A stretch of DNA of 64,000 nt, from contig PCTW01000016.1 of assembly GCA_002786715.1 (NCBI GenBank), positions 35,976-99,975 of the forward strand, in the 5' to 3' direction. Each line of letters begins with the position of its first letter. Position 1 is the first letter of the stretch. The notes below the pieces were generated by a model. The model was not told the origin of the DNA. It saw nothing but the letters and a program-made list of their open reading frames with translations, and made no database searches. The position numbers and the translations under genes were made by a program. This document shows positions 15,460 through 53,700 of this stretch, in pieces. Origin of the DNA: Bdellovibrio sp. CG22_combo_CG10-13_8_21_14_all_39_27 (GTDB taxonomy: Bacteria; Bdellovibrionota; Bacteriovoracia; Bacteriovoracales; Bacteriovoracaceae).

Positions 15460-15795
15460 ATGAATCTTAAAAATCAAAAATGTGTTCTGGCGACCTCTCA
15501 AGATATTTCTTTGAGTATCGACAAATGTCTTGAACTCAAAAAAGAACTCCGAGAAGATTGGATTTTAGATCAAGAAAATATGGTACTTACTAAAACTCTG
15601 ACTTTTAAAAATTTTAGAGAACCACTGCAAGTTCTGCTGAAAATTTCAAAAATGGCCGAAGAACAAAATCATCACCCCGTTTTAAAACTTGCCTATGGGC
15701 TTCTTGAAATTTCAATTTGGACTCATAAAGTGAATGGATTACTTAAAAATGACTTTATCTTTGCAGCAAAGGTAGATGAAATATGCGAACACTGA
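15460..15795 (+). CDS. phhB: pterin-4a-carbinolamine dehydratase
   Basis: 111 residues. The signature NHHPVLKLAYG…TH…GL..ND (H71, H72, P73; T88-H89) is intact. It dehydrates 4a-hydroxytetrahydrobiopterin, regenerating the cofactor of aromatic amino acid hydroxylases. No hydroxylase gene lies in the window. The downstream exported protein gene starts 13 bases inside it. Confidence 0.88.
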   Translation: MNLKNQKCVLATSQDISLSIDKCLELKKELREDWILDQENMVLTKTLTFKNFREPLQVLLKISKMAEEQNHHPVLKLAYGLLEISIWTHKVNGLLKNDFIFAAKVDEICEH

Positions 15796-16433
15796 TTATC
15801 TTCTTTTTATTTTTAACTTTTCCTACGAGCTATGCTCAAAATAATTCTCAAGGAAGCGATGACTTTTTTAAAGCTCTAAAAGAGCAAATGAAAGGTGACC
15901 GCCAAGAAATGGAGAAATATTTTCAAGGCGATTTTATCGATAAAATGGATGAAATGGTAGAGAAGATGCATAGCGATTTTTTCAAGCAATGGGAACAATT
16001 GATGCAAGATGATCAAGTCGGTGACTATTTTCGCCAAATGGAATTGGGACAAGCTGATATACCAATGGAGTGGAAGAAGACAGATAAAGGTCAGAGTCTC
16101 ATTGTTCAATTGAAACCGATAAAAGATGCTCCCCTTGAAATAAAAATTGATAATCACCAGATTATTTTAAAAGGGACAGTTGAAAAGACTCAAGAGTTTG
16201 GGACCGGGAAGTCCAAAGTTGTCACAAAGCGTATTTATACTTTCAACAAGTCGATTCAAATTCCAGATGAGCTTGATCCACAATCGGCCGACATTCACCA
16301 AGCGAAAGATGTTATTGAAATACGTTTTAAATTGGCAAAAAACAAAAAAAGGGGAGTGATCAAAAAACAAACTCCCTCTCAAGTTCCAGGTGTTCAGCCC
16401 TTAGTTCCTCAAGAGGGAGATATTAACCTTTAA
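15783..16433 (+). CDS. exported alpha-crystallin/HSP20-domain protein
   Basis: 216 residues. The signal peptide (…FPTSYAQ) is followed by a Met/Asp/Glu-rich helical segment (~25-90) and an alpha-crystallin-like beta domain (~95-190: EIKIDNHQIILKGTVEKT, YTFNKSIQIPDELDPQSADIHQAKDVIEIRF). Small heat-shock proteins hold unfolding proteins; most are cytoplasmic, so an exported one points to a periplasmic holdase. The C-terminus (QVPGVQPLVPQ) is proline-rich and could hold an IxI-like contact. The last 4 bases overlap the end of the phosphonate operon convergently. Confidence 0.75.
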   Translation: MRTLIIFFLFLTFPTSYAQNNSQGSDDFFKALKEQMKGDRQEMEKYFQGDFIDKMDEMVEKMHSDFFKQWEQLMQDDQVGDYFRQMELGQADIPMEWKKTDKGQSLIVQLKPIKDAPLEIKIDNHQIILKGTVEKTQEFGTGKSKVVTKRIYTFNKSIQIPDELDPQSADIHQAKDVIEIRFKLAKNKKRGVIKKQTPSQVPGVQPLVPQEGDINL

Positions 16434-17557
16434 TGTCTTTTTGACTGAAGAAAGGATTTAAGATTGTCTAAGAAAAAGCTGATGTCTTCGCTATTGAGTT
16501 CACCAATATTTGAAATTCTAAATGATTTTTCCTTGGCATTCTTACCTGGATAAATGGTGATTCCTTTAAGATAGAGATAGTCATGCATTTCTTCGAAAGT
16601 AAAATTACTACTCTCAGGCCATCTGAAGGCCGTGAGTATTTTTGCCTGGAGATGCTCAGGAACCAGACATTCAAATCCTAACTCGAGCATGCCACTTTTC
16701 ATTTGAAGATAAAGCTCTTCATAACGACTAGCTCTGGCCGTTGTTCCGCCAGCTTCAAAAAATTCATCGAACGCTTCATTGAGAGCGTAGAGAATTTGAA
16801 CTGGGGGAGTGAAGGCAAATTGATTATTTTTTTCTTGAGAACTGTAATTGTTTGAAAGATCCAAGTAGAAACTTCTTTTTGGGTATTGAGAAATTTCGTT
16901 AAGTACTTGCTCCTTAACAATACAGATTCCTAAGCCGGCCATACCTTGAATACACTTATTAGAGGATGACACTAAATAGTCGACGTCATCTTTTGACAGA
17001 TCTATTTCTATACCTGCATAGGAAGACATGGCATCAACTAATGTTTTTAATTTATATTGCTTGGCCAATCGATGAAGTGAGCTTAAGTCGTTTAAGATTC
17101 CAACCGTAGTTTCATGATGGATGAAGGCCATGACATGATACTTTTGAGCATTTTGCTCCAAATGAGTTTTAAGAGCTTGTTGATCAATGGGATCTCCCCA
17201 ATTCGCTTTAATAACATCTGCAGGAATCTTGAGAGCATCACAGATCTTTTTCATGCGTTCGCCATAAGCTCCATTTTCTAAAATGAGCACGGCCTTTTCG
17301 TTAGTGCATGAACTTAAGCAAGCTTCGATTGCAGCTGTTCCAGAACCACCAATAAGCACAGCTTTATAACGAGAATCTGCGCTTACAACTTGAAGTGCTT
17401 TATTTTTAACCACACCTAACAAATCGCCAAACTCTTGCTCTCTGGGACAAATATCGGGAACTATCAATGCTGATTTTACACGGGCCGAAGTTGTTGCTGG
17501 TCCGGGATTTAAAAGGATATTGCGATCAATTGTCTTTTCAATATTCTGTTTAAACAT
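16430..17557 (-). CDS. phnW: 2-aminoethylphosphonate-pyruvate transaminase
   Basis: 375 residues of the class V aminotransferase fold. The PLP-binding lysine is K201 in SSNKCIQGMAG, and D175 in VDAMSS contacts the pyridine nitrogen. PhnW interconverts phosphonoacetaldehyde plus alanine and AEP plus pyruvate. In catabolic loci it is paired with a phosphonatase; here it follows PEP mutase and phosphonopyruvate decarboxylase genes, so it should run toward AEP synthesis. Last gene of the operon; it overlaps the decarboxylase stop by one base. Confidence 0.9.
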   Translation of the reverse strand: MFKQNIEKTIDRNILLNPGPATTSARVKSALIVPDICPREQEFGDLLGVVKNKALQVVSADSRYKAVLIGGSGTAAIEACLSSCTNEKAVLILENGAYGERMKKICDALKIPADVIKANWGDPIDQQALKTHLEQNAQKYHVMAFIHHETTVGILNDLSSLHRLAKQYKLKTLVDAMSSYAGIEIDLSKDDVDYLVSSSNKCIQGMAGLGICIVKEQVLNEISQYPKRSFYLDLSNNYSSQEKNNQFAFTPPVQILYALNEAFDEFFEAGGTTARASRYEELYLQMKSGMLELGFECLVPEHLQAKILTAFRWPESSNFTFEEMHDYLYLKGITIYPGKNAKEKSFRISNIGELNSEDISFFLDNLKSFLQSKRH

Positions 17558-18714
17558 TAATGAGCTCCAGTCATAAAATCTTTAAGTCTCTCTGAAACTT
17601 GAGGAGGAGTAACCGTAGGTCTTCCCAATTTTTCAGGTGAACCTTTTTTAATAAAGAAACGAATAAAAGTTAAAGAAGGTGCTTTTTTGTATTCTTCTAT
17701 GGCCCCGGCCAAACCTTCAGCAGTGTTTGTTTCAATCACTCTTTTGTAGCCACAAGCTGAAGCGATAGAGCAAAAGTCGATCGTCTCAGATAATGTAGAT
17801 TGACCACCTGTCGAATCGTGAACGGCATTGTCGAGCAGAATATGGAGCATATTGTTTAAGTTCATTTGACCCGCAAGCGCCATATTTCCCATTCTCATCA
17901 ATAAAGCACCGTCACCATCAATAACGGTCACCGTTTTATTTGGAACAGCGTAAGCAAGACCTGCACCCATTGCAGCTGCGCAGCCCATCGATCCCACCAT
18001 GTAGAATTGATTTTCCGTATCGCCTAATTCAAAGAGTTCGCGTCCCGTTTTGCCTGTTGTCGCTAGAAGGGCAGTTTGTGGGCCAGTTGTGTCACGTATA
18101 ACTTTAAGGGCATCAGTACGAGTGAGATTGTTCTCTCCTGAAACTGATTTCTGAGTTTTCACTTCAGAAGTGAAACTGGCACTTTTGTTACCTTTCTTTT
18201 GTAGCTCATAGCTATTAACACTTCCTTCTTTCATGACCAGAAAGAAAGGCAATCTCGTTTCTTGCATCGAAGCCATGGCCCGATCAAGAGTTGGAGTTAC
18301 TTCCTCTTCGGTTTGAGGAAAGAAGCTCCAAGGAATCTGCATAATGTCGAGCATTTGAGTTGTGATTTGCCCCATCAGTTCATGCTGTGGTTCATCTTTT
18401 TTGCCACCTGGTTCACCTCTCCACGTTGTAATTCCAAGAAAAGGAATTCTCGAAGAGTAGCTCAACGAAGTAAGTGGATTTACGGCATTTCCAAGGCCAG
18501 AGTTTTGAAACATCACTACTGCTGTTTTGCCACCAACCCAAGTTCCTGAAGCTAAGGCGACTGCATCACCTTCATTAGGAGTTCCAATGAATTCAAGTTC
18601 ATTATCATCAATAACAAAATTGATGAATGGCTTCAGATAAGAACATGGTGTCCCTGTGAAGGTTGTTAAGTTATTTTTTTTACATTCGCTTAGAAAGCGG
18701 CTTGATTCAATCAT
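17557..18714 (-). CDS. aepY: phosphonopyruvate decarboxylase
   Basis: A single chain of about 385 residues of the ThDP-dependent family. FTGTPCSYLKPFIN at the N-terminus, the Glu in TPNEGDAVALASG, and the ThDP-Mg site GDGALLMRMGN…DNAVHDSTGGQ are the expected motifs. It converts phosphonopyruvate to phosphonoacetaldehyde, the irreversible step that pulls the unfavourable PEP mutase reaction. The ATG at 18714 is chosen because GAGG lies 6 bases upstream; a GTG at 18726 overlapping the PEP mutase stop is possible. Confidence 0.92.
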   Translation of the reverse strand: MIESSRFLSECKKNNLTTFTGTPCSYLKPFINFVIDDNELEFIGTPNEGDAVALASGTWVGGKTAVVMFQNSGLGNAVNPLTSLSYSSRIPFLGITTWRGEPGGKKDEPQHELMGQITTQMLDIMQIPWSFFPQTEEEVTPTLDRAMASMQETRLPFFLVMKEGSVNSYELQKKGNKSASFTSEVKTQKSVSGENNLTRTDALKVIRDTTGPQTALLATTGKTGRELFELGDTENQFYMVGSMGCAAAMGAGLAYAVPNKTVTVIDGDGALLMRMGNMALAGQMNLNNMLHILLDNAVHDSTGGQSTLSETIDFCSIASACGYKRVIETNTAEGLAGAIEEYKKAPSLTFIRFFIKKGSPEKLGRPTVTPPQVSERLKDFMTGAH

Positions 18715-18725
18715 ATTATTCCTCA

Positions 18726-20336
18726 CTAAAAAACTTGTACTTTTTCAAAATCTTTAAAGTTATCGACATCCATCCATTGACCTTCGATATAGCAAACGCC
18801 GATGTTTACATCTCGCTCAATCATGAAATTAAAGAGATCACCCATTTTCATCTCATGAAAGTGCGGAGTCTTTGACAATTCATCCAGTGAGTTTTTAAGA
18901 ATAGTAGAGCCTTTGGCATTGGCCTTGAGCATACCTATCCACTCGCCATGGACTTCAAATTCAGCCTGATTTTTAGTCGCAAGTTTCGTCTTTAAAAGGC
19001 GAGAGTTTTCTTCAACGAAAGATTTGTTGTATTTATTAGAAGTCGTTACATAATCGCCTGTGTATTGATCATCTCTTCTTGTTGTATTGGCATCAACGAC
19101 GATTGTAATGTCAGAAGTCGATTCATTCAGGAGGTTTAAGATATGGCCACGGAAAGCGATATCTCCATAAGCGATAAGAGTTTCGCCATCTATTTTGTTC
19201 TTTGCGAGGTAAAGAGAAGAGAGTTCTCCTGTTTTTTCATATTGATCATTATCAATATACTCACATCCTAATTGAGGAAAGCTGTCCTTTTTGTAGCCGC
19301 GAATAACACTGATATCATTCATGCCATGGTCTTTAATTTTATCAATGGCCTGCTTAAGAAGTGGTTTTCCATTAACTTCCAAAAGTGCTTTTGGTTTATT
19401 AAGTGTGAGTTCTCCCAGTTCCTTTCCGCGGCTTGCAGCAAGAATGATTGCGTGAACATTATTATTGCTTTGGAAGTATTTCTTCTCAGCTTCTTCCAAT
19501 TCTTGATCGTTTTGAAGTCTAAAGACTTCTTTCACAGAAGCAACCTTATCTTCAACATTTATTAAACTCTTATCTTCAAAAATTGTTTTTGCCGTTTGTT
19601 GCATGGCCGTAACAGCGCTTCTCATAAGGTGGTTGGCCCAGATTACTGTTGAAACTCCGTGATCAGCAAATTCTTGTGTTGGCGTGGCGTAATATTTTGT
19701 TGGAACGATAACAACTGGACAACGATCTCCCCACTCCTTCATGAAAGCGAAAATTTCGTCGGCACGGCTAATTTTACTATGCATAAGAATGGCAGTTGCT
19801 CCGGCTTTTCTATAGGCTTCAGCACGCTTGAGTGCTTCTTGCAGTCCCCATCCCGCAATTAAAGCTTCAACGCGAGCAACGATACAAAAATCGTCATCGC
19901 TACGAGCGTCAAGGCCTGCTTTAATTTTTCCGCAGAACTCATCCATGTCAGCGAGAGGTTGAGCTTCTCCACGAAGGAAACTATTTGTCTTTGGAAAGAT
20001 TTTATCTTCGATACAAACTCCAGCAACTTCTCTTTGCTCGAGTTTCTTAACGAGACGTCTCATATTGTTAAAGTTACCGTAACCTGTGTCGCCATCCAAA
20101 AGAATAGGGATTTGAGTGGCATCTGACATATATTCAACGACGTCTAAAACTTGAGTCCAAGAAGCTTCATTATTATCTCTCACTCCAAGAGAAGCAGAGA
20201 TTGAAAGACCAGAACCCCAGATTCCTTCAAAGCCGGCTTCTTCAGCGATTTTTGCTGATAAACCATTGTGGGCTTCCATCAGGAAGGCCAAATCTTTTCT
20301 TTGAATCATGCTTTTGAGTTTTGTCGTTTTTTTCAT
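18726..20336 (-). CDS. aepX: PEP mutase fused to a nucleotidyltransferase
   Basis: About 536 residues in two domains. Residues 1-290 are a PEP mutase (isocitrate lyase superfamily): LDGDTGYGN (81-89) for metal binding and [10 protein letters not shown] (111-120), the loop that distinguishes PEP mutase from lyases. It rearranges PEP to phosphonopyruvate, making the C-P bond. Residues ~294-537 are a nucleotidyltransferase ([10 protein letters not shown] 300-309, [10 protein letters not shown] 315-324) resembling CTP:phosphonate/phosphocholine cytidylyltransferases. Such fusions are known and imply formation of a CMP-phosphonate. The second of two adjacent ATGs is better spaced from AAGGA; the first is at 20339. 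Confidence 0.93.
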
Positions 20337-20980
20337 CATAGTGTCCTTTGAATTGTTGGAAAAATTAATTTCGTTAACATAAATAGTGAGAGAATAATCA
20401 TTAGTGAACCGCTGACGCGATTAAAAGTGAGAAGGTATTTGTTGCGGATAGCTTCTTTAAATTTATTAGTAATTTTTGACAGGAAAACAAACCATAGGAA
20501 TGAACCAGCCCCCAACCCTAATGAATGAATGATAATATTTGTTTGAGTCATTGGAAAAAGGGTAAGACTTTTTATAAAGGCACCAAGTCCAGTCATGGTT
20601 AAAATCAAGGTCGGATTTGAAGTGTATATCACAACACCTAAAAGAAGGTAGCCTAGTAGACCTGCTTTTTTAGTTTTAATCTCTTCATTCTCATTGGGCA
20701 CAATTGGCTTGGCCATGAGATCTTTAATCCCTAAGAAAAAAATCAAAGCAATTCCAACTGATTTTAAAATGATGGTTATGTTTTCACTAAAATCAAACAT
20801 TGAAAGGCCTGATAGAATAATCATGAAATAAACAACATCCATCAAAGAACCACCAAGTGCTATGGCCAAAGCATTTTGCGAGCTACTCTTTATCTGAGTA
20901 TTAATAACCATGACGTTGATTGGCCCAACCGGAATACACATCAGAAAACCAATAAAAGTTCCAAGCAGAAGTGCAATCAC
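20336..20980 (-). CDS. LysE-family membrane transporter
   Basis: About 214 residues with six probable transmembrane helices and the N-terminal LysE/RhtB signature [21 protein letters not shown]. Family members export amino acids and similar small solutes. The GTG at 20980 is chosen because it overlaps the stop of the upstream gene (GTGA) and gives the usual LysE N-terminus. Placement inside the phosphonate operon suggests export of an aminophosphonate, or a membrane role in lipid synthesis; neither is shown by sequence. Confidence 0.85.
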
Positions 20981-21849
20981 AAGACTTTCTCTTTTAGTAG
21001 AATACTTGAATTCACATTGGATTGAATAAAATAGACTAACAAAAGCCAAAGGTTTGAAACAACTAAGGCGAAGTACAAATATATAGGCATTTCATTAAGC
21101 ATTAGGGCCAAACTTAAAAAAGTTAAGTGAGACGATCCAGCCACAAAGGCCCAAAGAGGAAGTATCGAAATATTAACTTTTGTGTACTTTTCGGCATCGT
21201 AGAGGGGAACGGAGTCATCGCTTTTTTGAGCATTTGAAAACTTTAAAAACATAAAAAGAAGAAACTTTTCAAAGTATTGCCCCTTTTGTTTCTTAAGTTG
21301 ATCGTACTCTCTTCTCCAAGCATTCAGTTCTCTGATGCGACCATCAGGATTGCCACTTGAGTAATGCTGAAATTGCTTTTTGTAATAATGATAAATACTC
21401 GCATGGATTAAAATGCATATAGCACATAAAAATGAAAAGTATTCAATAGGGAAGTCGTGATTCTGTTTTTTAAGTCCAATGAACAGAGTTGAATAAATGG
21501 CAATGTTAGAAATAAGGTCGACGAACATATCAATTTGAGTTCCCCATTTTGAACCATTCTTTTTCATTCGAGCAATCATGCCGTCGCAGCAATCAAAAAC
21601 ACTGAAAAGGATAATGCATACTCCACCTATGGCGAAATCCAATTTTTCACCTTGAGCAATAAAATATGAACCGACTAAGGCCCAAATAAGAGCAACAAAA
21701 GAATAGTGGTTGGGATTGAGTGGCATTTTGTAGGTAAGTTTGACTATCAAGTAGGCCAGAGGTCTATAGATGAGAAAATCGAAAGGTTCCTCTAAGCGAA
21801 ACTCTTTAGTGTTGTTCTGATATTCAAGTTTTGATAGTAGGGCCATCAT
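20977..21849 (-). CDS. CDP-alcohol phosphatidyltransferase family, candidate phosphonolipid synthase
   Basis: 290 residues with several transmembrane helices. The family motif is complete: D86xxD89G90xxA93R94x8G103x3D107x3D111. Such enzymes displace CMP from a CDP-alcohol, or transfer a CDP-activated head group to a lipid alcohol. Beside two nucleotidyltransferases and the AEP pathway, the likely reaction is CMP-AEP plus ceramide or diacylglycerol to phosphonolipid plus CMP. It begins on the base after the stop of the nucleotidyltransferase gene. Lipid specificity cannot be read from sequence. Confidence 0.88.
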   Translation of the reverse strand: MMALLSKLEYQNNTKEFRLEEPFDFLIYRPLAYLIVKLTYKMPLNPNHYSFVALIWALVGSYFIAQGEKLDFAIGGVCIILFSVFDCCDGMIARMKKNGSKWGTQIDMFVDLISNIAIYSTLFIGLKKQNHDFPIEYFSFLCAICILIHASIYHYYKKQFQHYSSGNPDGRIRELNAWRREYDQLKKQKGQYFEKFLLFMFLKFSNAQKSDDSVPLYDAEKYTKVNISILPLWAFVAGSSHLTFLSLALMLNEMPIYLYFALVVSNLWLLLVYFIQSNVNSSILLKEKVL

Positions 21850-22605
21850 TTATTTCCCAAAAATTTCGACAGCTCTTTTAAAATCTTCAGGATTGTCGAT
21901 TTCAATTGAACGTCCACGAGTTAATTTGTAAATTCCAACATCTTCTTCTAAAAGAAATTGATTGAGCATATGTTCCCAATTGAGGTTGAGGTTTTTTGGA
22001 TGAGACAGAAATTCTTCTGTTTTTTTGCAAAGCTTTACAGTGTCTTCTTTGGAAAACTTTAAAATCCCAATTGCTTCTCCAGCAAAGTCATATTTTGCGA
22101 GTTCTTCACTGGTAACGGCCCTTTTGTCGACCGTCATGCGGGCAAAGCCTTTTTGATCTATTAAAGTCTTAGCGCACTCAATATCCTCTAGGCTTGATGG
22201 CCCAATAAGAATTTGAGAGTTTGTTCCTTGATTCATAAAATCTTCAAGGACTTCTTTATCGTAAATAAGATCGGCATCAAAGATTAAGCAAGGTTGTGCT
22301 AGTTCTTTGACTCCTAACAAAAGAGAGAAGGTGTTGCCTTGTTTTTCAAAGTCTTCGTTGAGTTGATATCTAATATTGAAATCATCCTTATATTTTTCAG
22401 CGACATTTCGAATCATTGATTCTTTGTATCCAAGAACCAAAGTGACGTCTTTTATTCCCAGCTCTTTCCAAAGACGAAAGCTTCGTTCAAGTAAAGACTC
22501 TGAATTAATTTGAAGGAGACATTTCGGATCATTCGTAAGTTTACTAATGCGCGATCCGTAACCTGCCGCTAAATAAACTGCATGAAATTTATTTACTTGA
22601 TCCAT
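21850..22605 (-). CDS. stand-alone nucleotidyltransferase (LicC/PntC-like)
   Basis: 251 residues. LAAGYGSRIS (12-21) and DPKCLL (26-31) form the nucleotide-binding signature, and FDADLIYD holds the metal-binding Asp. It resembles CTP:phosphocholine and CTP:AEP cytidylyltransferases. The operon thus has two such domains, one fused to PEP mutase. This one may activate AEP while the other acts on a different phosphonate, or the reverse. It overlaps the oxygenase gene by 13 bases and abuts the phosphatidyltransferase gene. Confidence 0.88.
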   Translation of the reverse strand: MDQVNKFHAVYLAAGYGSRISKLTNDPKCLLQINSESLLERSFRLWKELGIKDVTLVLGYKESMIRNVAEKYKDDFNIRYQLNEDFEKQGNTFSLLLGVKELAQPCLIFDADLIYDKEVLEDFMNQGTNSQILIGPSSLEDIECAKTLIDQKGFARMTVDKRAVTSEELAKYDFAGEAIGILKFSKEDTVKLCKKTEEFLSHPKNLNLNWEHMLNQFLLEEDVGIYKLTRGRSIEIDNPEDFKRAVEIFGK

Positions 22606-23474
22606 AATCTCTCCATAGTGCGCTTTAAGATGGCGCCTTTGCCTTGAATATAGTCATCATAAGTTACGGCTTCGATGGCGTCAGAAAAACAGGTTCTACC
22701 ATGCAACACTTGAGCATCTCTTGTAATGAGAATGTCGCCCTTTCTCATGCGATAACGCATTTGATACTCTGAGCTGTTTGTCACGGCATCTAGAACGTCA
22801 ATAGCGTAGAGTTGTTCAAAAGATAGGGGCTTGTTGGCCTTAACGTGAGCAGACTCCATATAAGGACGTAAGTGGCGAAAGAGCGGAAGACCATTTTCAT
22901 CATAAGTAATGATTGGGGCTTCATATAAAGAATCAGAAACTCCTCTCATTTCCCAAGTAAAGTTGTCCTCAAGTACGGCCAAGGCCTTTGGATACTTCTC
23001 TTTTAGTGTTTTATGGACGGCAACGCCGTCGACTAAAATATTTTCCCCTCCCACTTGAGCTGGTTCGATACAGCTTAAAAAGAGGTAATTCCAAATTTCT
23101 GGGATGTTTACGTTATCTGTATGAATGCTCCCGCCTTCACGGGTTTGATGATAACGAGCACCTTGATACATAGATCCCAAGCGATCACGATCGTAGACCA
23201 TGATGACTTTGTCGCCTTTTTCGTTTTGAACTAAGAGCTCTCCAAAGAAGCTGCTTATAAGTTCAGGAGCATTAACCAACTCCTGATGACTAAAAGTATT
23301 GGCCGCTTCATCTTCGAGATGAAGAATAACTCCTCGATATTTGGTATCTAAGTCTTCCTTTATAGCGGAGAAGAAAGGGGCAAGTTCACTTAAGTTCTTA
23401 TCCTTAATTCCTTTACCTAAAGCTACTTGCTTCGCTGCGTCCATGGTGATTTCTTTCATAAATGATGATTGCAA
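22593..23474 (-). CDS. Fe(II)/2-oxoglutarate oxygenase (TauD/TfdA superfamily), candidate AEP hydroxylase
   Basis: 293 residues. The iron facial triad is H118-x-D120 (GGSIHTDNVN) and distal H258 (VLHGRTCF). R285 and R289 in RTMERLW are candidate 2-oxoglutarate-binding arginines, as in TauD-like enzymes. Using Fe(II), 2-oxoglutarate and O2 it should hydroxylate an unactivated carbon. As first gene of an AEP-lipid operon, C1 of the aminoethylphosphonate (free, CMP-linked or in the lipid) is the likely target. The start is TTG, with a perfect AAGGAG 6 bases upstream; the ATG five codons later is too far from it. It is not close to taurine dioxygenase in context. Confidence 0.85.
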   Translation of the reverse strand: MQSSFMKEITMDAAKQVALGKGIKDKNLSELAPFFSAIKEDLDTKYRGVILHLEDEAANTFSHQELVNAPELISSFFGELLVQNEKGDKVIMVYDRDRLGSMYQGARYHQTREGGSIHTDNVNIPEIWNYLFLSCIEPAQVGGENILVDGVAVHKTLKEKYPKALAVLEDNFTWEMRGVSDSLYEAPIITYDENGLPLFRHLRPYMESAHVKANKPLSFEQLYAIDVLDAVTNSSEYQMRYRMRKGDILITRDAQVLHGRTCFSDAIEAVTYDDYIQGKGAILKRTMERLWIK

Positions 23475-23568
23475 AATAGACTCCTTGAAATTAGTGCTAA
23501 TGTAATAACTAACCGAAACTACTTTTTCTATGTGACAAAAGTATCAATGTGAAGTAATAAAGTCAGCT
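23475..23568. promoter_or_regulatory. divergent promoter region of phosphonate operon and LuxR-type regulator
   Basis: The 94 bases between the TTG of the oxygenase gene and the regulator ATG must hold both promoters. AT-rich with several TAAT-type repeats (GTGCTAATGTAATAACTAA), but no operator could be fixed by eye. An AAGGAG serving the oxygenase gene lies at its left end. Confidence 0.45.
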
Positions 23569-24072
23569 ATGACAAATGTCACATCACCCTTTTATAAAGA
23601 AAAAGTAACGATCACATATTTTTTGATCGGCATTTTTCTTATTGTCACATTCGATATTTCTTACGATGTGCTCGACGGGATGGGGCTTCACGTTCTCTTT
23701 CGCAGTGCAATTGTTGGAGTTACTATTCTCTATACCGTATTTAGAATGGTGCGCTATGTGTGGAGTTCGTTTCAATTTGAACTTGAAGAATCAAAAAAAA
23801 CCGCAGGCCAATATGAGCGAAAAATTAAGGATTTTATTGGCGAATTTAAAAAGTATATCGAAGATGAATTTGAAAAGTGGCAATTTAGCCAAAGTGAAAA
23901 AGAGATCGCTTATCTTTTGTTAAAAGGTTTAAGCTCCAAAGATATGGCGGCCAAGAGATTTACTTCAGAGCGCACAATTCGCAATCAATGTGCCACCATT
24001 TATCAAAAGTCTGGTCTCCAGGGCAAAACTGATTTTTGTGCTTATTTTCTTCAAGAATTCTTAACAGAGTAA
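23569..24072 (+). CDS. membrane-anchored LuxR/GerE-type transcription regulator
   Basis: 167 residues. Two hydrophobic segments (~14-30 and ~42-62) form a membrane hairpin, followed by a charged, probably coiled-coil linker (~68-100) and a GerE-type helix-turn-helix (~104-165: SQSEKEIAYLLLKGLSSKDMAAKRF, SERTIRNQCATIYQKSG). There is no receiver or ligand domain, so the membrane part is the only possible sensor. It diverges from the phosphonate operon across 94 bases and is the obvious candidate to control it, perhaps in response to membrane composition (inference). Confidence 0.8.
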   Translation: MTNVTSPFYKEKVTITYFLIGIFLIVTFDISYDVLDGMGLHVLFRSAIVGVTILYTVFRMVRYVWSSFQFELEESKKTAGQYERKIKDFIGEFKKYIEDEFEKWQFSQSEKEIAYLLLKGLSSKDMAAKRFTSERTIRNQCATIYQKSGLQGKTDFCAYFLQEFLTE

Positions 24073-24076
24073 GTTT

Positions 24077-25258
24077 TTAGAGAAATTGGGCCGTGACTCC
24101 CCAGATGGTTCTAAACTCAGTATCCTTTCTCACAAGAGGTGAGGCCGAAACATTTTTGCCGTACCATTTTTCACCTACCGCCATAACCCATTTATAGCGC
24201 CCCATTTTTAAATATCCCTTGATCATTATTTCCATGTTTTGAGTTGCTTTAGCGTTATACTCACGTCCAACAACATTCACTTCATTGGGAGCCACTCCGT
24301 AATAGTAGTTCATATATTCATCGTCCCACCATTGGACGAACATATGGGGGGCAAGAGTGAAATAGCGATTGAGATTGTATTCATGCTCAAGTTGAATTTT
24401 AAAAATTTCACCATGTGAGATTCCTTGAATATCTTTAAACCAAAAAAAAGTGAGATCCCAAGTTTTTAAAATCCAGCCTGAAAAAAGTGATCGCTCCCTC
24501 TCACTTAGTCCATCAGCATCATAGGGCTCACCATCAATGATAGTGGTAAAGAGAAGGGCGTAGTTTTTAAGAGGTAAAAGGACAATTCCTGCTCCATCTT
24601 TATTGATGAAAAGGGGGCCATAGCGAATGAGGAAAAGGGGAAGGGGTTCGTGAACAGTAAGACCCTGGCGAAAAGTGGTCTTATCTTTTAAGTGATTACG
24701 AGGACGAATATTTTCAGAAAGATTAAATCCAATTCCCACATGGGCTTCGTAAAAAGGAATGTATCCTTCCGCATTGTAGTAGGGGATCTCAATAAATTGG
24801 GGAACTGATTGTTGGTCGACAACTTTTACTAAGACATTTTTGAGAGTCGGGAAGGCCAAATAGTTGTGATAGTTTACAGTAATCTCTTCCAATTTATAAC
24901 GTTGGTTATTGTATTCGAGATATTTATCAATTTGACAGTTGGTGATTTCAAAATGAAATCTGAGATTTTTAACTGCCGAAATTTGAAAATCGAGAAATTC
25001 ATCGACAGAGAATAAAGTTTCTACGTTGTAGTAGATACTCTCAATAAAGGAAGGTTCTGATTCATTGCCGGTCGCGTGATCGTAAATGTCGACAGTCATT
25101 TCTGAAACATCTTTGAACTTACAATCGCGAATCTTGGCCCGATAACGAACTTTTTTGTTTGAATTGCTATGGGACACTTCAAGAAGTGTCACGAGTTGAT
25201 CTTCGGCCAGAACAATATGAGGCAGAAGTACTAATAAGAGTATTAAAGTCTTAAACAT
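24077..25258 (-). CDS. MipA/OmpV-like outer-membrane protein with N-terminal domain
   Basis: 393 residues with a signal peptide (…LPHIVLAE). The C-terminal ~230 residues (GYIPFYEAHVGIGFNL, DADGLSERERSLFSGW, YMNYYYGVAPNEV, VGEKWYGKNVSASPLV) resemble the MipA/OmpV barrel family, in which YYGV and a late SPLV segment are typical. The first ~150 residues are an extra soluble domain of unknown kind. MipA can bind lytic transglycosylase; the role here is open. It ends in an aromatic-rich strand (GVTAQFL). Confidence 0.7.
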   Translation of the reverse strand: MFKTLILLLVLLPHIVLAEDQLVTLLEVSHSNSNKKVRYRAKIRDCKFKDVSEMTVDIYDHATGNESEPSFIESIYYNVETLFSVDEFLDFQISAVKNLRFHFEITNCQIDKYLEYNNQRYKLEEITVNYHNYLAFPTLKNVLVKVVDQQSVPQFIEIPYYNAEGYIPFYEAHVGIGFNLSENIRPRNHLKDKTTFRQGLTVHEPLPLFLIRYGPLFINKDGAGIVLLPLKNYALLFTTIIDGEPYDADGLSERERSLFSGWILKTWDLTFFWFKDIQGISHGEIFKIQLEHEYNLNRYFTLAPHMFVQWWDDEYMNYYYGVAPNEVNVVGREYNAKATQNMEIMIKGYLKMGRYKWVMAVGEKWYGKNVSASPLVRKDTEFRTIWGVTAQFL

Positions 25259-35887: not shown

Positions 35888-36192
35888 TTATAAACTATTT
35901 CTAGCTTTTCCATATAGTTTTTGTATTCAATGAGAAGTGATTTAATTGAAATTAGGTCTTGCTTTATTGCGGCCATTTCTAAATTGACGCCAATTTGACC
36001 AAGGTCAGGAAGACCATAGCTACCTGCATTTCCTGCCAATTTATGACCTATGACCTGAATTGTCTTGATGTCGTTTGTTTTTATAGCTTCTAAAATAGAA
36101 GAGAGATCTTTTATCCTGTTACTTAAGAACGTAGGCATGATGTCTTTGAGGTCTGCATCTATCGTGATTCGAATTTTACCTGAGTCTGCCAT
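35884..36192 (-). CDS. histidine phosphotransfer (Hpt) protein
   Basis: 102 residues forming a four-helix Hpt domain. The phosphorylatable His is H50 in VIGHKLAGNAGSYGL, matching the HxLKGxAxxxG pattern. Such proteins carry phosphate between receivers of a multistep phosphorelay. First gene of a minus-strand trio with the two receiver/PilZ-like proteins. The hybrid kinase that would load it is not in the window. Confidence 0.85.
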   Translation of the reverse strand: MADSGKIRITIDADLKDIMPTFLSNRIKDLSSILEAIKTNDIKTIQVIGHKLAGNAGSYGLPDLGQIGVNLEMAAIKQDLISIKSLLIEYKNYMEKLEIVYK

Positions 36193-46265: not shown

Positions 46266-47747
46266 ATGTGTGGTGTCATTGGTCTTATTGGACCTCAAGA
46301 AATAGCTTCTTCAGAAGATTACTGGGCCGCCTATGATGCCTATAGAGGATTGTTGACCCTACAGCATCGCGGGCAAGATGCTGCCGGAGTACTCACTTAC
46401 GATACGATGAAGAAAAAGTATTATGGCGACAAGGATCTAGGTCTGGTTGCTCAAGTCTTTCAACAAAAAAATCTCGAAACTCTTAGAGGCAATTTGGCCA
46501 TTGGACACACTCGCTATGCGACTATTGGTAGCGATGGTAAAAACGACCTACAACCTATGGTGATGGGATTTCCGATCGGCATGGGAATGGTTCATAACGG
46601 GAATATCGTCAATTATTTTTCATTAGCAAAAGAGATGGCCGATAAATTTGGCCTTCACTTACTCACAAATAATGATCTCGAATTAATGATGCATGTTTTT
46701 TGCCAAGGTTTACTTACGAATAAATCAATTGATTCAACACAGGTTAATCTTGATGACATGAAAAGGGCGGCAAAAGATTTATTAGTTAAGGCCATAGGCG
46801 CATATGCGCTTGTTGGAACGGTTGCGGGAATTGGGCTGTTTGGTTTAAGAGATCCAAAAGGTATTCGACCATTGGTTCTCGGCAAAAAAACGAAAAATGG
46901 AAAAGATATTTGGTGCCTGACCTCTGAAACTTGCGCTTTGAATTTTTTAGGGATGGAGTTTGTCAGAGATGTGGCTCCTGGCGAACTTGTCATCATCGAT
47001 GAGAATCTGCAATTGCATTCATTTCAAATTATCGAAGAAAAAAAGAAAGCTCGCTGTATGTTTGAGTGGATTTACTTTGCTGGGGCAGAGTCGAGCCTTG
47101 AAGGTCGTTCAGTCTATGGTGCTCGATTAGGCTTAGGTCAGGTTTTGGCCAAGAAAGCAAAACTCTTAATCGAAGACAAAACAATTATTCCAGATATTGT
47201 CTGTCCCGTACCAGACACTTCGAGAACGGCCTCTATTGCCTTGGCCGAAAGTTTAGGACTTCCTTACCGAGAAGGATTAATTAAAAATCGTTATACTCAA
47301 CGAAGCTTTATTTTAAATACGCAAGACAAGCGTGAAAAAGCAGTTGAGCTTAAACTCTCTCCCGTTCGCAGTGAAATAGAAGGAAAAAATATCTTATTAG
47401 TTGATGATTCTGTTGTTCGCGGAACAACTTCTCGCCAAATCATAAGTCTTTTAAAGAAACATGGAGCGAAACAAGTGACCCTTGCGATTACTTGTCCACC
47501 TTTGAGACATGGCTGTTTTTACGGAATAGATTTTCCAAGTGATAAAGATCTTATTGCTAATGGAAAAGATGTTCCTGAAATCGCAAAATGGGTTGGAGCT
47601 GACCATGTTATTTATATTGATGAGCAAGATTTGCAAGACGCTATTGGCCTAGATGGTCTCTGTATGGCCTGTGTGACAGGTGAATATCCCACTTCAGTGA
47701 CTGAAGCTTTGGAATTCACCCAAAGAAGAAATGAATTTAAAGGATAA
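46266..47747 (+). CDS. purF: amidophosphoribosyltransferase
   Basis: 493 residues. After Met removal Cys2 (MCGVIGL) is the glutaminase nucleophile; the PRPP loop is ILLVDDSVVRGTTS, and a C-terminal CMACVTGEYP suggests the Fe-S-type Cys found in Bacillus-like PurF. It makes phosphoribosylamine from PRPP and glutamine, the first purine step. GTAGAGG precedes the ATG. First gene of an eight-gene plus-strand operon; purC follows after 6 bases. Confidence 0.95.
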   Translation: MCGVIGLIGPQEIASSEDYWAAYDAYRGLLTLQHRGQDAAGVLTYDTMKKKYYGDKDLGLVAQVFQQKNLETLRGNLAIGHTRYATIGSDGKNDLQPMVMGFPIGMGMVHNGNIVNYFSLAKEMADKFGLHLLTNNDLELMMHVFCQGLLTNKSIDSTQVNLDDMKRAAKDLLVKAIGAYALVGTVAGIGLFGLRDPKGIRPLVLGKKTKNGKDIWCLTSETCALNFLGMEFVRDVAPGELVIIDENLQLHSFQIIEEKKKARCMFEWIYFAGAESSLEGRSVYGARLGLGQVLAKKAKLLIEDKTIIPDIVCPVPDTSRTASIALAESLGLPYREGLIKNRYTQRSFILNTQDKREKAVELKLSPVRSEIEGKNILLVDDSVVRGTTSRQIISLLKKHGAKQVTLAITCPPLRHGCFYGIDFPSDKDLIANGKDVPEIAKWVGADHVIYIDEQDLQDAIGLDGLCMACVTGEYPTSVTEALEFTQRRNEFKG

Positions 47748-47753
47748 TCGAGA

Positions 47754-48890
47754 GTGAAAGCTATATATCATGGTTCTGTAAAGGATCTCTATCGCACAGA
47801 TGATGAGAAAATGATTTTTCTCTTCTCTGATCGTTATTCTGTTTTTGACTGGGGAGAAATGCCGGATCATCTCAAGCTTAAAGGTCAATCACTTACACGC
47901 ATCGCCCATCTTTTTTTTAAAATGTTAAGTGATTCTCATTTCTGGAGAACATTGGATAACGGACTCATTACAAGCGATAGTTTATTATTTGAGAGATTTT
48001 GTGTCCATGGATTGCCTCATCATTATATTGGACCCGTCACGAGCGATGGGATTCTTGGAAATATTGAAGACGCTGTTTCTGGACTGAAAGTTGAAGAGGT
48101 TCAAGTTTTAAGGCCACAATATATCAAAGAAAAACATAGTTATGATTATTCCACTTATTCCGAGAGGCCAACAAAGACTCTCGTTCCGCTTGAAATGATT
48201 TTTAGATTTGGACTAACTGAAGGATCATCTCTTTTTGAGCGGGTTTCTGATCAAGCTTATTTGGCGCAGTTGGGGTTAGATGCCTCAGACTTAGTCCCAG
48301 GTGTATTGTTTCAAAGGCCAGTTATTGAATTTTCGACTAAGCTCGAAGAACGCGACCGCTACTTGAGTTACCAGCAAGCTCAAGAGATCTCTGGAATGTC
48401 AGATGAGGAATGGGCGGAGCTGCTAGAGACCGTTTCATTAATTGCGCTTGCGATTAAAAAAATATGGAGTGATACCAATATTATTTGTCTTGATGGCAAA
48501 GTTGAAATGGCCTTTATTGAAGGCGAGAATCATCGACAATTTATGTTGGTTGACAGTATTGGACCAGATGAATTGAGGCTTAGTCATAATGGGGTCGAAT
48601 TATCTAAAGAATGTTTAAGAAAGTTTTATCGCAAGGATCAAGCCTGGTTTACGTCGCTTAAGACGGCTAAGCAAAAGGCAGATGCATTAGGTGTTCAAGA
48701 TTGGAAAAGCATGGCCCTCGAACTTCATCCAACAGGGCCTGCTCCATTACCTGCAAATATCAAAACACCTATTGAAATGCTTTATCGGACGTTGACTCAA
48801 GAATTATACCGAACTCATATGAGTTTGACGATTGACTCAAGTGCTTGGTCGCTTGAAAAATTATCTCATACGCTTAGAGGTCTTTTATGA
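47754..48890 (+). CDS. purC: SAICAR synthetase
   Basis: 378 residues, GTG start. GSVKDLYR near the N-terminus is the ATP loop (usually GKxKDxY), FSDRYSVFDWG matches the family, and the C-terminal half has the Asp-rich catalytic region. It joins aspartate to CAIR. At 378 residues it is much longer than the ~240-residue E. coli enzyme and diverges from it. Assignment rests on the N-terminal signature and on its place between purF and purD. Confidence 0.85.
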   Translation: MKAIYHGSVKDLYRTDDEKMIFLFSDRYSVFDWGEMPDHLKLKGQSLTRIAHLFFKMLSDSHFWRTLDNGLITSDSLLFERFCVHGLPHHYIGPVTSDGILGNIEDAVSGLKVEEVQVLRPQYIKEKHSYDYSTYSERPTKTLVPLEMIFRFGLTEGSSLFERVSDQAYLAQLGLDASDLVPGVLFQRPVIEFSTKLEERDRYLSYQQAQEISGMSDEEWAELLETVSLIALAIKKIWSDTNIICLDGKVEMAFIEGENHRQFMLVDSIGPDELRLSHNGVELSKECLRKFYRKDQAWFTSLKTAKQKADALGVQDWKSMALELHPTGPAPLPANIKTPIEMLYRTLTQELYRTHMSLTIDSSAWSLEKLSHTLRGLL

Positions 48891-50188
48891 AGATTCTCGT
48901 CATAGGAAGTGGTGGTCGAGAGCATGCCTTATGCTTGGCGCTTTCCCAGTCTCCAAGCTGTGAATCGCTCTTCGTTCTACCTGGAAATCCTGGCATGAAG
49001 GCCGTATCGAAGCTCGAATTTATTCCGGGCAAGGTAACCGATTTAGAGTATATTCTAAAAACTTCTCAGGAACTGGCCATCGATCTTGTGGTCGTTGGTC
49101 CTGAAGATCCGCTCTCATTGGGCTTGGCCGATCTGTTGCGATCTCATGGTATTTCAGTTTATGGACCGGGAAAGTTTGCAGCGCAACTTGAGTCATCCAA
49201 AGCCTTCTCTAAAGAATTCATGAAGAAATATAATATCCCGACAGCAAATTATAAGACTGTTGAAAATTTTGAAGATGCAAAATACGTTATTAAGCATTGG
49301 CCTGAAGAATCAGGAATTGTCGTTAAGGCATCTGCTCTAGCTCAGGGAAAGGGTGTTGTTGTCGCTCAAGACAAAGATGAAGCGATCAAAGCTTGTTTTG
49401 ATTTTTTTGAAAATGATGAGTGTTCTATAACTACAGACAAAATTGTTTTAGAAGAACGATTAATTGGTGAAGAGCTTTCTTCTTTTGCCATTTGTGATGG
49501 ACACGATTATTTCTATCTGGGACATGCTTGCGATTACAAACGAGTTCACGACAATGATTTAGGTCCGAATACTGGCGGTATGGGGGGGTATACTCCTAAT
49601 CGTTGGCCAGGTCCAAAAGCGATTGAACAGATTCATGACATTGTTAAAAAAACTATTAATGGAATGAAAGAAGAGGGCTTCCTTTTTATCGGAACGCTCT
49701 TTATCGGATTAATGATTAATGGCGATGAGGTAAAGGTTATCGAGTTTAATGTTCGTCTTGGCGATCCAGAAACTCAGATGCTTTTGCCACGTGTTCAAGG
49801 TGATTTAGCTTCTTTGCTCTTTAAAGCTTCTACTGAAAGCTTAAAGGATCAGCATGACGTCAAGCTTGATGATAATGAATGTGTTCATATCGTTTTAACG
49901 AGTGGAGGTTATCCTTCTGTAGATAAGACGCCTCTCCTTCTCAATCAAGAAATTCATGGCTTTGAAACCATAAATGATCCAGATCTTTTTCTCTATTTTG
50001 CCGGCGTCAAAACGAATCCAGAGGGAAAATTGGTTAATTCCGGGGGACGAGTTTTAGGAGTGACAGCGAAAGCAGAGACAATAGAGCAAGCCCGAAAAAT
50101 GGCCTATGAAGCTATTCAAAAAATTAATTTTTCAGGTTCACACTACAGGAGAGACATTGCCAAAATTCAACGTGGCCATCTTCGCTAG
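48887..50188 (+). CDS. purD: phosphoribosylamine-glycine ligase
   Basis: 433 residues of the ATP-grasp fold. VIGSGGREHAL at the N-terminus, VVKASALAQGKGVVVA (ATP loop) and GPNTGGMGGYTPN are classic PurD motifs. It makes glycinamide ribonucleotide. It overlaps purC by 4 bases, and purN starts inside its last 32 bases. Confidence 0.95.
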   Translation: MKILVIGSGGREHALCLALSQSPSCESLFVLPGNPGMKAVSKLEFIPGKVTDLEYILKTSQELAIDLVVVGPEDPLSLGLADLLRSHGISVYGPGKFAAQLESSKAFSKEFMKKYNIPTANYKTVENFEDAKYVIKHWPEESGIVVKASALAQGKGVVVAQDKDEAIKACFDFFENDECSITTDKIVLEERLIGEELSSFAICDGHDYFYLGHACDYKRVHDNDLGPNTGGMGGYTPNRWPGPKAIEQIHDIVKKTINGMKEEGFLFIGTLFIGLMINGDEVKVIEFNVRLGDPETQMLLPRVQGDLASLLFKASTESLKDQHDVKLDDNECVHIVLTSGGYPSVDKTPLLLNQEIHGFETINDPDLFLYFAGVKTNPEGKLVNSGGRVLGVTAKAETIEQARKMAYEAIQKINFSGSHYRRDIAKIQRGHLR

Positions 50189-50753
50189 CGGGGAAGGTTC
50201 GAATGCTCAAAATTTGTGGAGAGTGGCAAGTAAAGCAGGGCACCCTGTACGTGGTTTGATTTGTGATCGTCAAGATGCAGGAGTTATAAAACTTGCTGAG
50301 CAAGAAAATATTCCTCACATTGTAATTAATAAAAAAGACTATCTTAAAAAACAATCAGATTTTGAAGCCGCTATTCTAAATCAATTAATTGAGTGGGATG
50401 TTAATTGGATATTTTTGGCAGGATTTATGACTATCTTAAGTTCTCATTTTTTAAAGATGTATTTCAATTCGATAACTCAGAAGTTTCAAGTGATTAATAT
50501 TCATCCCTCGTTACTTCCTCAATATCCAGGAACAAAATCTTATCAACAGGCCTATGCAGATAAAGTAAATACACATGGTGTGACAGTTCACTATGTTGAC
50601 GAGGGTGTAGATACAGGCCCAATTATTGAGCAACAAATATTTACAAGAGATATTGCTTGGAGTTTTGAGGAATTTGTCGCTTTTGGGAAAAGTATTGAAC
50701 ATAAATTATATGAAAAAGTTTTCCTTAATTTTTTAAATGAACATTTGGAATAA
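50157..50753 (+). CDS. purN: phosphoribosylglycinamide formyltransferase
   Basis: 198 residues from a TTG with AGGAG 5 bases upstream; the longer frame back to 50106 would give an unlikely N-terminus. FASGEGSNAQN (phosphate loop), NIHPSLLPQYPG (catalytic Asn-His) and HGVTVHYVDEGVDTGPII (catalytic Asp) identify the 10-formyl-THF-dependent enzyme. It formylates GAR. Unusually large overlap with purD (32 bases) suggests coupled translation. Confidence 0.92.
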   Translation: MPKFNVAIFASGEGSNAQNLWRVASKAGHPVRGLICDRQDAGVIKLAEQENIPHIVINKKDYLKKQSDFEAAILNQLIEWDVNWIFLAGFMTILSSHFLKMYFNSITQKFQVINIHPSLLPQYPGTKSYQQAYADKVNTHGVTVHYVDEGVDTGPIIEQQIFTRDIAWSFEEFVAFGKSIEHKLYEKVFLNFLNEHLE

Positions 50754-50756
50754 GTA

Positions 50757-53700
50757 ATGACAACTAAAAGAATTGAAATTGATGAAATTCATCGAGCACC
50801 AGATCATGTTTTGGCGGCTCAGTTAAAAGAATTGTTTAGCGGTATAGATGCCAGGGTTTTTAAACGTCGCTTTTATCTGATTGAAGGTAAAATTTCCGAT
50901 TGGAATCTGGTTTACTCTCTTTTCTTTGATCCTTTACTTGAACAAATTATTTTGGATGAATCCGAACATCTTCACCCTTGTGATTGGGTTATTGAAGTTA
51001 GCTACTTGCCTGGTGTGACAGACAACCCTGGTCGTTCGGCCAAAATGGCCTTAGAAGAATGTCATATTCAAGCGGAGGTTTCGTCTGGTCAGATTTACTT
51101 CATTGAAGGAAAAACAAGTGAAGGCCCACTTTTGGCCTGGGCCCAAGAGCATTTAGGAAATCCGCTTATCCAACGTGTTTCACTTTTAACTTATCATAAG
51201 TGGTCATCCTCTAAGCGCTTTACAGAACCACACTTACCCAAAGTTCAAATCGATCATGATCATCATGTCCAGACAATCAATATAGATATGACTGATGAAG
51301 AAGCTGAATCTTTGATCGTTGATCGTTGCCTTGCTCTTTCATTAGGAGAGTGGAACCATCTCAAAAACTATTTTAAATCTGATACTGTCCAGGAACAGAG
51401 ACTTGATTTAGGTATGCCCAAATTGCCAACGGATGTTGAAATTGAAATCATAGCACAGTCTTGGTCGGAACATTGTAAACACAAAATCTTTTCTGCCAAT
51501 ATCGAATATTCAGAATGCGATGATCATGGTGGCGTTAAGCTAGAATCTAGTACCGTGAAATCGCTTTATAAGAGTTTAATCAAGAAAGCGACTTTTGATG
51601 CCAAGGAAAAGCATAATATTGATTGGCTTATTTCGGTGTTTAGCGATAATGCTGGAATTGTTCGTTTTGATTCTGAAGTTGATCTTTGTATAAAAGTTGA
51701 AACTCATAATTCTCCTTCGGCACTTGATCCTTATGGTGGTTCATTAACAGGTATTCTTGGTGTTAATCGTGATATTATGGGAACGGGAATGGGCGCTCGT
51801 CCCATCGCTAACACGGATGTTTTTTGTTTCGGTTCTCCTCGTCTTCCAGCTAAAGATAATAAAGAATTAATGCCTGCAGGAGTTAAGTCACCACGAAATA
51901 TTTTTCGTGGTGTTCATAAAGGCATCGAAGATGGTGGTAATAAAAGTGGTATCCCTACCGTCAATGGTTCATTCTTTTTTGATAATAGCTATTGTGGTAA
52001 GCCGTTAGTCTTTTGTGGAACAGTCGGAGTATTACCTCAGCAATTGCCTGATGGTCGCCAAGCTTCTGGTAAGCATGCCAAAGCTGGGGACGCTATTATC
52101 GTTATCGGAGGAGCTGTTGGAGCTGATGGTATTCATGGCGCAACATTTAGTTCTTTAGAACTAAACGAAAGCTCTCCTGCGACTGCGGTACAAATAGGTG
52201 ATCCTTTAACTCAAAGAAGATGTTTAGATTTTTTAATTGAAGCACGCGATTTGGGGTATTTTTCTTCAATTACTGATAATGGAGCTGGCGGTATTAGTTC
52301 AAGTCTCGGTGAGATGGCCCGCGAAACGGGTGGGGCACAAATTGATCTCTCTCAATGTACTTTGAAATATCCAGGGCTTTCTCCTTGGGAAATTATGATT
52401 TCAGAAAGTCAGGAACGTATGTCCTTAGCTGTTCCTCAAAAATATGTTACTGCATTTTGCAGCTTGGCCCAAAAACGTGGTGTCGATGCTCAAGTTCTAG
52501 GTTCTTTTACTGATTCTGGATTTTTTGAAATTTTTCATGCACAACAAAGAGTTGCCTATCTCTCACTAGAGTGGTTGCACGAGTCTTTGCCTCCGATGCA
52601 ACTAAAAGCACATTGGGACGGCCCTCGACCTTTTACTTCTTGGTTGAGTGAATCAACTAATAAAAAAACTATTGCTGAAACAACATGGGATGAAGTGTTA
52701 CTTAAAATTCTTGGGAGTGATAATGTTGCTTCCAAAGAGCGTTGGGTTCGACGTTATGATCATGAAGTGCAAGGGGCCACTCATCTTAAACCCTACATTT
52801 CTCTCAAGCAGACATCTCCTTCTAATGCAGGTGCTATTTGGTTGAAGCCTCATGGAGGGTCAGAAAAAGCCACTGTCTATATCGGTCATGGCCTAGCTCC
52901 TCGCTATTCTCCTTATGATCCTTACTTCATGGCGCAAGCAGCAGTTGACGAGTCCGTTCGCAATATTGTGGTTCAAGGTGCAAACCCAGAACAAATTTGT
53001 CTCCTTGATAACTTTTGTTGGCCAGATCCAGTAGCGTCTCTTAAGAATCCTGATGGCGAATATAAACTTGGTCAGCTCGTAAGAACTTGTTATGGACTTT
53101 ACGATATCGCTGTCCATTATGGTCATCCCTTTGTCTCAGGCAAAGATTCTATGAAAAATGATTTCAGAGGGAAAAATAAAAGAGGCGAATCACTTCAAAT
53201 TAGTATTTTGCCTACGCTATTAGTTACGGCCATGGGCAGTGGAAGTTTAGCAACAAGTACTCGCTGCTATTTCCCTCGCGCCGGCCTGAAGATAGGACTT
53301 CTCGGTAAACCAAGTGGTGGGTTAATGGCCAGTGAATTTGAGCAATTTGTTCTGCTCAATTTAGAACACAAATGCTTGCCTGAGATTTCTATTGATCAAA
53401 ATAAAAAACGTTATTCTCTATTTCATCAAGCCTGTGTTGAGCAATTAATTGAGAGTGCCACTGATATTTCTGATGGAGGACTTTTGGTTGCACTTTCAGA
53501 ATTGAGTTTTGCAGAGAGATTGGGAATTCGCTTTACTGATGACGTTGTCGGCGACTGGATTTATCTTTTTAATGAGTCGCCAGGACAATTGGTCATTGCT
53601 TTCGACCATGAGAATGAAGCCCGCTTAAATCAAATCTTCCAAGAAGACTTAGTCGTGATAGGTGAAACTATTTCTGAACCCATTATTGAAATTCCTAAAT

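Follow-up and report, generated by a model that had tools for sequence, protein, structure and literature searches.

Here, we analysed a stretch of 64,000 nucleotides (hereafter 'the window') from the genome of Bdellovibrio sp. CG22_combo_CG10-13_8_21_14_all_39_27 (family Bacteriovoracaceae; assembly GCA_002786715.1, contig PCTW01000016.1, forward-strand positions 35,976 to 99,975). We found that it carries an operon of seven genes which, with a probability of about 0.7, makes a lipid head group with a carbon-phosphorus (C-P) bond and puts it on a lipid, most likely ceramide. That the genes encode a head-group pathway leading to a phosphonolipid is very likely. The predicted product would be like the sphingophosphonolipid with a 1-hydroxy-2-aminoethylphosphonate (HAEP) head group isolated in 2001 from Bacteriovorax (Bdellovibrio) stolpii (Watanabe 2001, as cited in PMC8154272; see also the passage on this lipid in PMC6148460).

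Results

The operon runs from position 23474 of the window down to 16430, with all seven open reading frames (ORFs) on the minus strand. In order of reading, and with 2-aminoethylphosphonate abbreviated as AEP and (H)AEP standing for AEP or HAEP, the genes are:

22593..23474, minus strand: TauD/TmpA-like Fe(II)/2-oxoglutarate (2OG) oxygenase, encoded first in the operon, which would hydroxylate the aminoethylphosphonate unit at C1 (PF02668, 4e-21)
21850..22605, minus strand: free-standing MobA-like nucleotidyltransferase (NT), PntC/LicC-like, proposed CTP:(H)AEP cytidylyltransferase (PDB matches LicC, 5e-16, and T. denticola PntC, 5e-10)
20977..21849, minus strand: CDP-alcohol phosphotransferase, proposed to use CMP-(H)AEP as donor of (H)AEP for a lipid alcohol, with ceramide as the most likely acceptor (PF01066, 9e-10)
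20336..20980 (ORF open from 21049), minus strand: LysE-family membrane protein, possibly for transport (PF01810, 2e-21)
18726..20339, minus strand: phosphoenolpyruvate (PEP) mutase with a fused C-terminal MobA-like NT domain that lacks the GxGxR arginine (TIGR02320, 401 bits)
17557..18726, minus strand: phosphonopyruvate decarboxylase (PPD; TIGR03297, 412 bits)
16430..17557, minus strand: 2-aminoethylphosphonate transaminase (AEPT), last gene (TIGR03301, 380 bits)

The initial annotation had described seven packed minus-strand genes at 16430-23474, and all seven ORFs were confirmed at the coordinates first given. Neighbouring genes overlap by 1 bp (AEPT/PPD and PPD/PEP mutase), 4 bp (PEP mutase/LysE) and 13 bp (NT/oxygenase) or follow with a gap of 0 (CDP-alcohol transferase/NT). 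The LysE gene probably starts at GTG 20980 rather than at the listed TTG 21049, which would give a 4-bp GTGA overlap with the stop of the CDP-alcohol transferase gene. Inspection of the sequence also revealed AAGGAG about 6 nt upstream of the TTG start of the oxygenase gene. Likewise, the protein families first assigned to the seven genes agree with Pfam and NCBIfam scores and with intact motifs; the TauD, LysE, CDP-OH_P_transf and NTP_transf_3 matches exceed the Pfam gathering scores.

PEP mutase, PPD and AEPT, all in the same operon, exceed the curated equivalog cut-offs of their families (320, 312 and 361 bits, respectively), which upholds the earlier claim that they make AEP from PEP. The PEP mutase matches the PEP mutase in the PDB with 1e-134, and its EDKxxxxxNS motif is intact in the window as well as in 96/96 unique relatives.

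To place the operon among its relatives, we compared the source genome (G000; 4.08 Mb, 97 contigs) with a set of 129 genomes of its order. PEP mutase (E <1e-60) was found in 20/129 genomes, and most of these, from several genera, keep the order TauD-NT-CDP-alcohol transferase-LysE-PEP mutase-PPD. As the block recurs in this order across several genera, it is not a chance grouping. Exceptions are G005, which is the only relative lacking the LysE-type gene at its place, some copies cut at contig ends, and one genus in which AEPT is often split from the rest by a few genes. In genus g15, the operon or parts of it occur in 14/14 genomes, 13 of them recognised by PEP mutase and one (G067) by TauD-NT-CDP-alcohol transferase on a contig ending there. 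The LysE protein of the window has six hydrophobic segments.

Which molecule might accept the head group? The CDP-alcohol transferase carries the full motif D(x)2DG(x)2AR(x)nG(x)3D(x)3D (DCCDGMIARMKKNGSKWGTQIDMFVD, at residue 86) and, in a simple scan, four hydrophobic segments, as befits this family of membrane proteins. It is the third such gene in the genome; because ordinary PgsA-type and PssA-type genes are present beside it, it is an extra, special one. The genome also encodes one clear serine palmitoyltransferase (SPT), on contig C79, with bioF present separately. This SPT scores 391 bits against the Sphingobacterium SPT in the PDB, where the enzyme kind ranking next reaches 283, and 506 bits against NF047600, below the cut-off of 640. 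Behind it lies a gene for a protein of 372 amino acids (L131 8756-9874, G000:C79) without a Pfam match, whose structural model (pLDDT, the predicted local distance difference test score, of 86) is that of a tandem GNAT acyltransferase. The gene adjoins SPT in 11/11 relatives checked, and its product is a candidate ceramide synthase. An epimerase-type reductase gene follows the pair, and we infer that the three form a cluster for ceramide synthesis.

In Caulobacter, the ceramide genes include SPT, an N-acyltransferase and an NAD(P)-dependent reductase, and the same types of enzymes occur in G000. The difference lies in the acyltransferase: PF04339, which we take to be the Caulobacter-type family, was looked for in the genome and is absent, and the tandem-GNAT protein adjoins SPT instead. 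Five genes for this bacterial ceramide synthesis have been described in Caulobacter (PMC11324152).

SPT is present in 20/20 PEP-mutase genomes and in 71/129 genomes overall; counted by genus, the co-occurrence amounts to 8/8 versus 33/48 (p = 0.037). Physical linkage is the stronger evidence for ceramide. In G071, the operon reads TauD-NT-LysE with no transferase in between, and the transferase gene is located on a different contig. There it follows, at a distance of 15 bp, an additional acyltransferase gene of the SPT-linked type (71% identical to the copy beside SPT in that genome), and it is itself followed closely by the gene for a fatty-acid desaturase, which has a further match to PF08557, the motif of sphingolipid delta4-desaturases. 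In G072, a desaturase gene (82% identical to that of G071) immediately precedes LysE-PEP mutase-PPD, all on the same strand, with the contig ending inside it. Homologues of the desaturase are encoded close to SPT in three more genomes (G031, G095 and G097), and G000 has one as well.

The best surviving alternative, which we nevertheless regard as unlikely, is diacylglycerol as acceptor. The product would then be a glycerophosphonolipid, the phosphono analogue of phosphatidylethanolamine, and the sphingolipid genes would merely be common in the family. CDP-alcohol transferases such as the eukaryotic EPT1 do use diacylglycerol, most of the 71 SPT-positive genomes are free of the operon, and in G000 the operon and the SPT cluster lie on different contigs. 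This reading, however, leaves aside the G071 transferase gene between the acyltransferase copy and the sphingolipid-desaturase-like gene as well as the desaturase gene in the operon of G072, and the known HAEP lipid of B. stolpii has a sphingoid base, according to the passage on it in PMC6148460. Given that a lipid is the target, ceramide thus seems likely, rather than diacylglycerol.

For activation of the head group, the operon offers two NT domains. The free-standing NT has intact GxGSR...PK catalytic residues, invariant among its relatives, and thereby the residue pattern of MobA-like PntC enzymes. Among 68 clusters with enough flank, it is found in 22/25 with a recognisable CDP-alcohol transferase compared to 7/43 without (Fisher p 6e-9, relatedness uncorrected), and 17 full-flank clusters hold oxygenase, NT and CDP-alcohol transferase together. 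A match to the oxygenase in L117 (G057) was discounted: judged by its sequence, this ORF of 115 amino acids appears to resemble the L067 query in nothing but its GBBH-like N-terminal domain. Because of its co-occurrence with the transferase, the free-standing NT is likely the partner of the lipid-transfer step. It keeps the catalytic Arg and Lys of the PntC AEP cytidylyltransferases of T. denticola and A. rimae (PMC6697681), but its identity to them is low and AEP or HAEP is only its predicted substrate.

In the second NT domain, which forms one protein with PEP mutase, the arginine of GxGxR is missing from 96/96 unique relatives of many phyla; without it, the domain falls outside the PntC residue pattern (GxGxR + PK). 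Fusions of this kind are counted in the literature as nucleotidyltransferases. Mutation of the equivalent Arg15 in T. denticola PntC leaves <10% of the activity (PMC6697681). We considered that the fused domain had decayed and been replaced by the free-standing NT; this idea was rejected, as the loss of the arginine is universal in the fusion family. Moreover, in roughly half of the clusters the fused domain is the only NT nearby, so that it cannot simply be written off as inactive.

The oxygenase would add the hydroxyl group. Its iron triad HxD...H (H118, D120, H258) is invariant in 17 orthologues together with R285 and R289, one of which presumably binds 2OG. The nearest structures in the PDB are FrbJ, GBBH and TmpA, and a structural model (pLDDT 77, with poorly modelled active-site loops) matches TtnM, GlaH, FrbJ and TmpA. 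FrbJ and TmpA are phosphonate hydroxylases, so that a phosphonate substrate is plausible. The window protein has the TauD/GBBH superfamily and fold in common with them, yet it is distant: the best NCBIfam match is TmpA (NF049936) with 56 bits, far under the cut-off of 400, and the protein hence falls outside the equivalog of TmpA, a trimethyl-AEP hydroxylase.

Might the enzyme act elsewhere, namely at another position, on the acyl chain or on the sphingoid base, leaving plain AEP as head group? We rate this as somewhat less likely still than a diacylglycerol acceptor. The TauD family has a wide substrate range, the best matches of the window protein are weak, and related clusters of the AEP-lipid type without an oxygenase exist (L066, G057). 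On the other side, the oxygenase gene comes first in every complete copy of the operon seen, two of the nearest structures are those of phosphonate hydroxylases, and in the Burkholderiaceae cluster an oxygenase of another Pfam family belongs to an equivalent gene set. HAEP is also the head group found in B. stolpii, as cited in PMC8154272. Taken together, hydroxylation of the head group appears highly probable.

Upstream of the operon, three further features deserve mention:

23475..23568, no strand: divergent intergenic region holding the ribosome-binding site of the operon
23569..24072, plus strand: divergent gene for a LuxR-type (LIC13292-family-like) regulator that may act on the operon (GerE, 1e-5; NF047608, 95 bits, under the cut-off)
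24077..25258, minus strand: MipA/OmpV-like outer-membrane protein, putative accessory gene (PF06629, 2e-21)

A scan of the intergenic region for promoters yielded no promoter-like site better than chance. Homologues of the LuxR-type gene lie divergent from the oxygenase gene also in G081 and G110, members of two other genera (L149, L150), and the gene is a possible regulator of the operon. The MipA-like gene adjoins the operon in four genera (G000, G005, G059 and G110; window and loci L114, L150 and L162). Strong homologues of it (E <1e-30) occur in 11/20 PEP-mutase genomes versus 2/109 others (Fisher p 4e-9, relatedness uncorrected); in the operon-free sister species G010 and G033, none was found. 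Outside the family, G057 (L117 10092-16863) combines PEP mutase-PPD-AEPT-CDP-alcohol transferase-NT, without an oxygenase, with gapless genes for MMPL, MlaE and MlaD, and in G067 an MMPL gene overlaps the start of the oxygenase gene. MMPL, MlaE and MlaD are lipid-transport families; these neighbours and the MipA-like gene fit a lipid product.

In the least probable alternative, the phosphonate would be destined for a glycan or for lipid A, or would stay unattached as a small molecule, with the CDP-alcohol transferase acting in another step. Bacterial phosphonate capacity mostly serves cell-surface tailoring, often of glycans (PMC6697681, PMC8931226), and G005 has a gene for an EptA-type phosphoethanolamine transferase just upstream of the oxygenase gene. 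Pfam and NCBIfam scans of the seven genes and their immediate neighbours, however, turned up neither a glycosyltransferase nor a LicD-like gene, the NT tends to occur together with the CDP-alcohol transferase, and in G057 the equivalent set is joined to lipid-transport genes. The alternatives overlap, as a diacylglycerol acceptor and plain AEP could both hold, and their likelihoods and that of the full proposal need not sum to one.

Some further genes were noted on the side. The EptA-type gene of G005 (L114 14133-15518), directly upstream of the operon, might move a phosphonate head group to lipid A. A cluster in Cyclobacteriaceae (L066 7799-15305) contains PEP mutase, PPD, NT, AEPT, CDP-alcohol transferase and a sulfatase-family gene, with no oxygenase seen, and possibly makes a plain AEP lipid. 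In the window, a gene for a weak HSP20-like protein (15783-16433) is convergent with the transaminase gene and overlaps its end by 4 bp, and genes with amidotransferase/phosphoribosyltransferase and AIR-synthase domains (46266-53774) probably belong to ordinary purine biosynthesis. Large genes near the operon of G014 (BipA, ABC ATPase) look unrelated.

Discussion

We propose the following pathway, in which the substrates and the order of steps are those predicted from the gene set. PEP mutase, PPD and AEPT would convert PEP to AEP, the TauD-type oxygenase would hydroxylate the AEP unit, probably at C1, to HAEP, and the free-standing cytidylyltransferase would turn AEP or HAEP into its CMP conjugate. 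In a Kennedy-type transfer, the CDP-alcohol phosphotransferase would then move (H)AEP to the primary hydroxyl of ceramide, which would be supplied by the SPT-GNAT acyltransferase-reductase cluster elsewhere in the genome, and a sphingophosphonolipid like that of B. stolpii would result. The initial annotation had placed the complete route from PEP to the hydroxylated lipid in one operon. This stands for the head group, whose genes are all in the operon, and does not extend to ceramide, whose putative genes lie on contig C79.

Several observations weigh against this proposal. SPT is common in the family, 13 of the 20 PEP-mutase genomes belong to one genus, and the co-occurrence is weak once relatedness is counted. 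Both direct linkages between operon and sphingolipid genes (G071, G072) stem from a single genus, g15, and a desaturase homologue (E 1e-40) is absent from 6/20 PEP-mutase genomes. G016 carries PEP mutase and SPT with neither oxygenase nor transferase. The similarity of the oxygenase to FrbJ (E 1e-8) and TmpA (5e-5) is distant, and its best fold match is TtnM, a hydroxylase of a polyketide pathway. The division of labour between the fused NT domain and the free-standing NT lacks an explanation, and the product of the source strain is predicted from genes alone.

How new is such a gene set? A phosphonolipid cluster has already been proposed, going by Fig. 7 of PMC5987646, a study of lichen Nostoc from 2018 that follows Yu et al. 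2013 (PNAS). It combines pepM, ppd and AEPT with genes for a CDP-alcohol phosphatidyltransferase, an OG-Fe(II) oxygenase and an NTP transferase, and a homologous Burkholderia cluster is depicted in that study with Yu 2013 as source. All six functions are present in the window, and this kind of cluster is therefore already known as a proposal. We compared the operon with sequences of Burkholderiaceae loci and, for Nostoc, with the description of the cluster. The Burkholderiaceae loci differ in having an oxygenase of the HalD/2OG-FeII_Oxy_3 type instead of TauD, an NT and a CDP-alcohol transferase only 25-28% identical to those of the window, and no LysE gene seen. What is added here is a variant that uses another oxygenase family and occurs in the very family of predators that yielded the lipid, together with its links to sphingolipid genes and an accessory gene for an outer-membrane protein.

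The initial annotation had further claimed that the genes had not yet been tied to the lipid. Our search of the open-access literature, with subscription papers outside it, found no paper linking genes to the B. stolpii lipid, and the claim holds to this extent, while the kind of cluster, as depicted in PMC5987646, had been proposed before. In B. stolpii the molecule is known and its genes are unassigned in the open-access literature, and in the window the genes are all that is known.

A more far-reaching picture is that of a dedicated sphingophosphonolipid system, with hydroxylation by a TauD-type enzyme of a family unlike that in Burkholderiaceae, CMP activation by the free-standing NT, and a ceramide-specific transferase. 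In this picture, the lipid would be carried or hosted at the cell surface by the LysE and MipA-like proteins, and the fused NT domain would either function in spite of its missing catalytic arginine or serve a different purpose. As a joint claim, we consider this doubtful.

With the operon, the orphan lipid of 2001 becomes genetically testable. If our proposal is true, the C-P head group could be removed and its role in these bacteria, for instance in lipase resistance, would be open to study. It would further reveal how a head group other than phosphate is attached to ceramide in bacteria, and that two different oxygenase families were recruited to one kind of gene set. The operon would also provide a genomic marker for environmental phosphonolipid makers, which contribute aminophosphonates to the phosphorus cycle.

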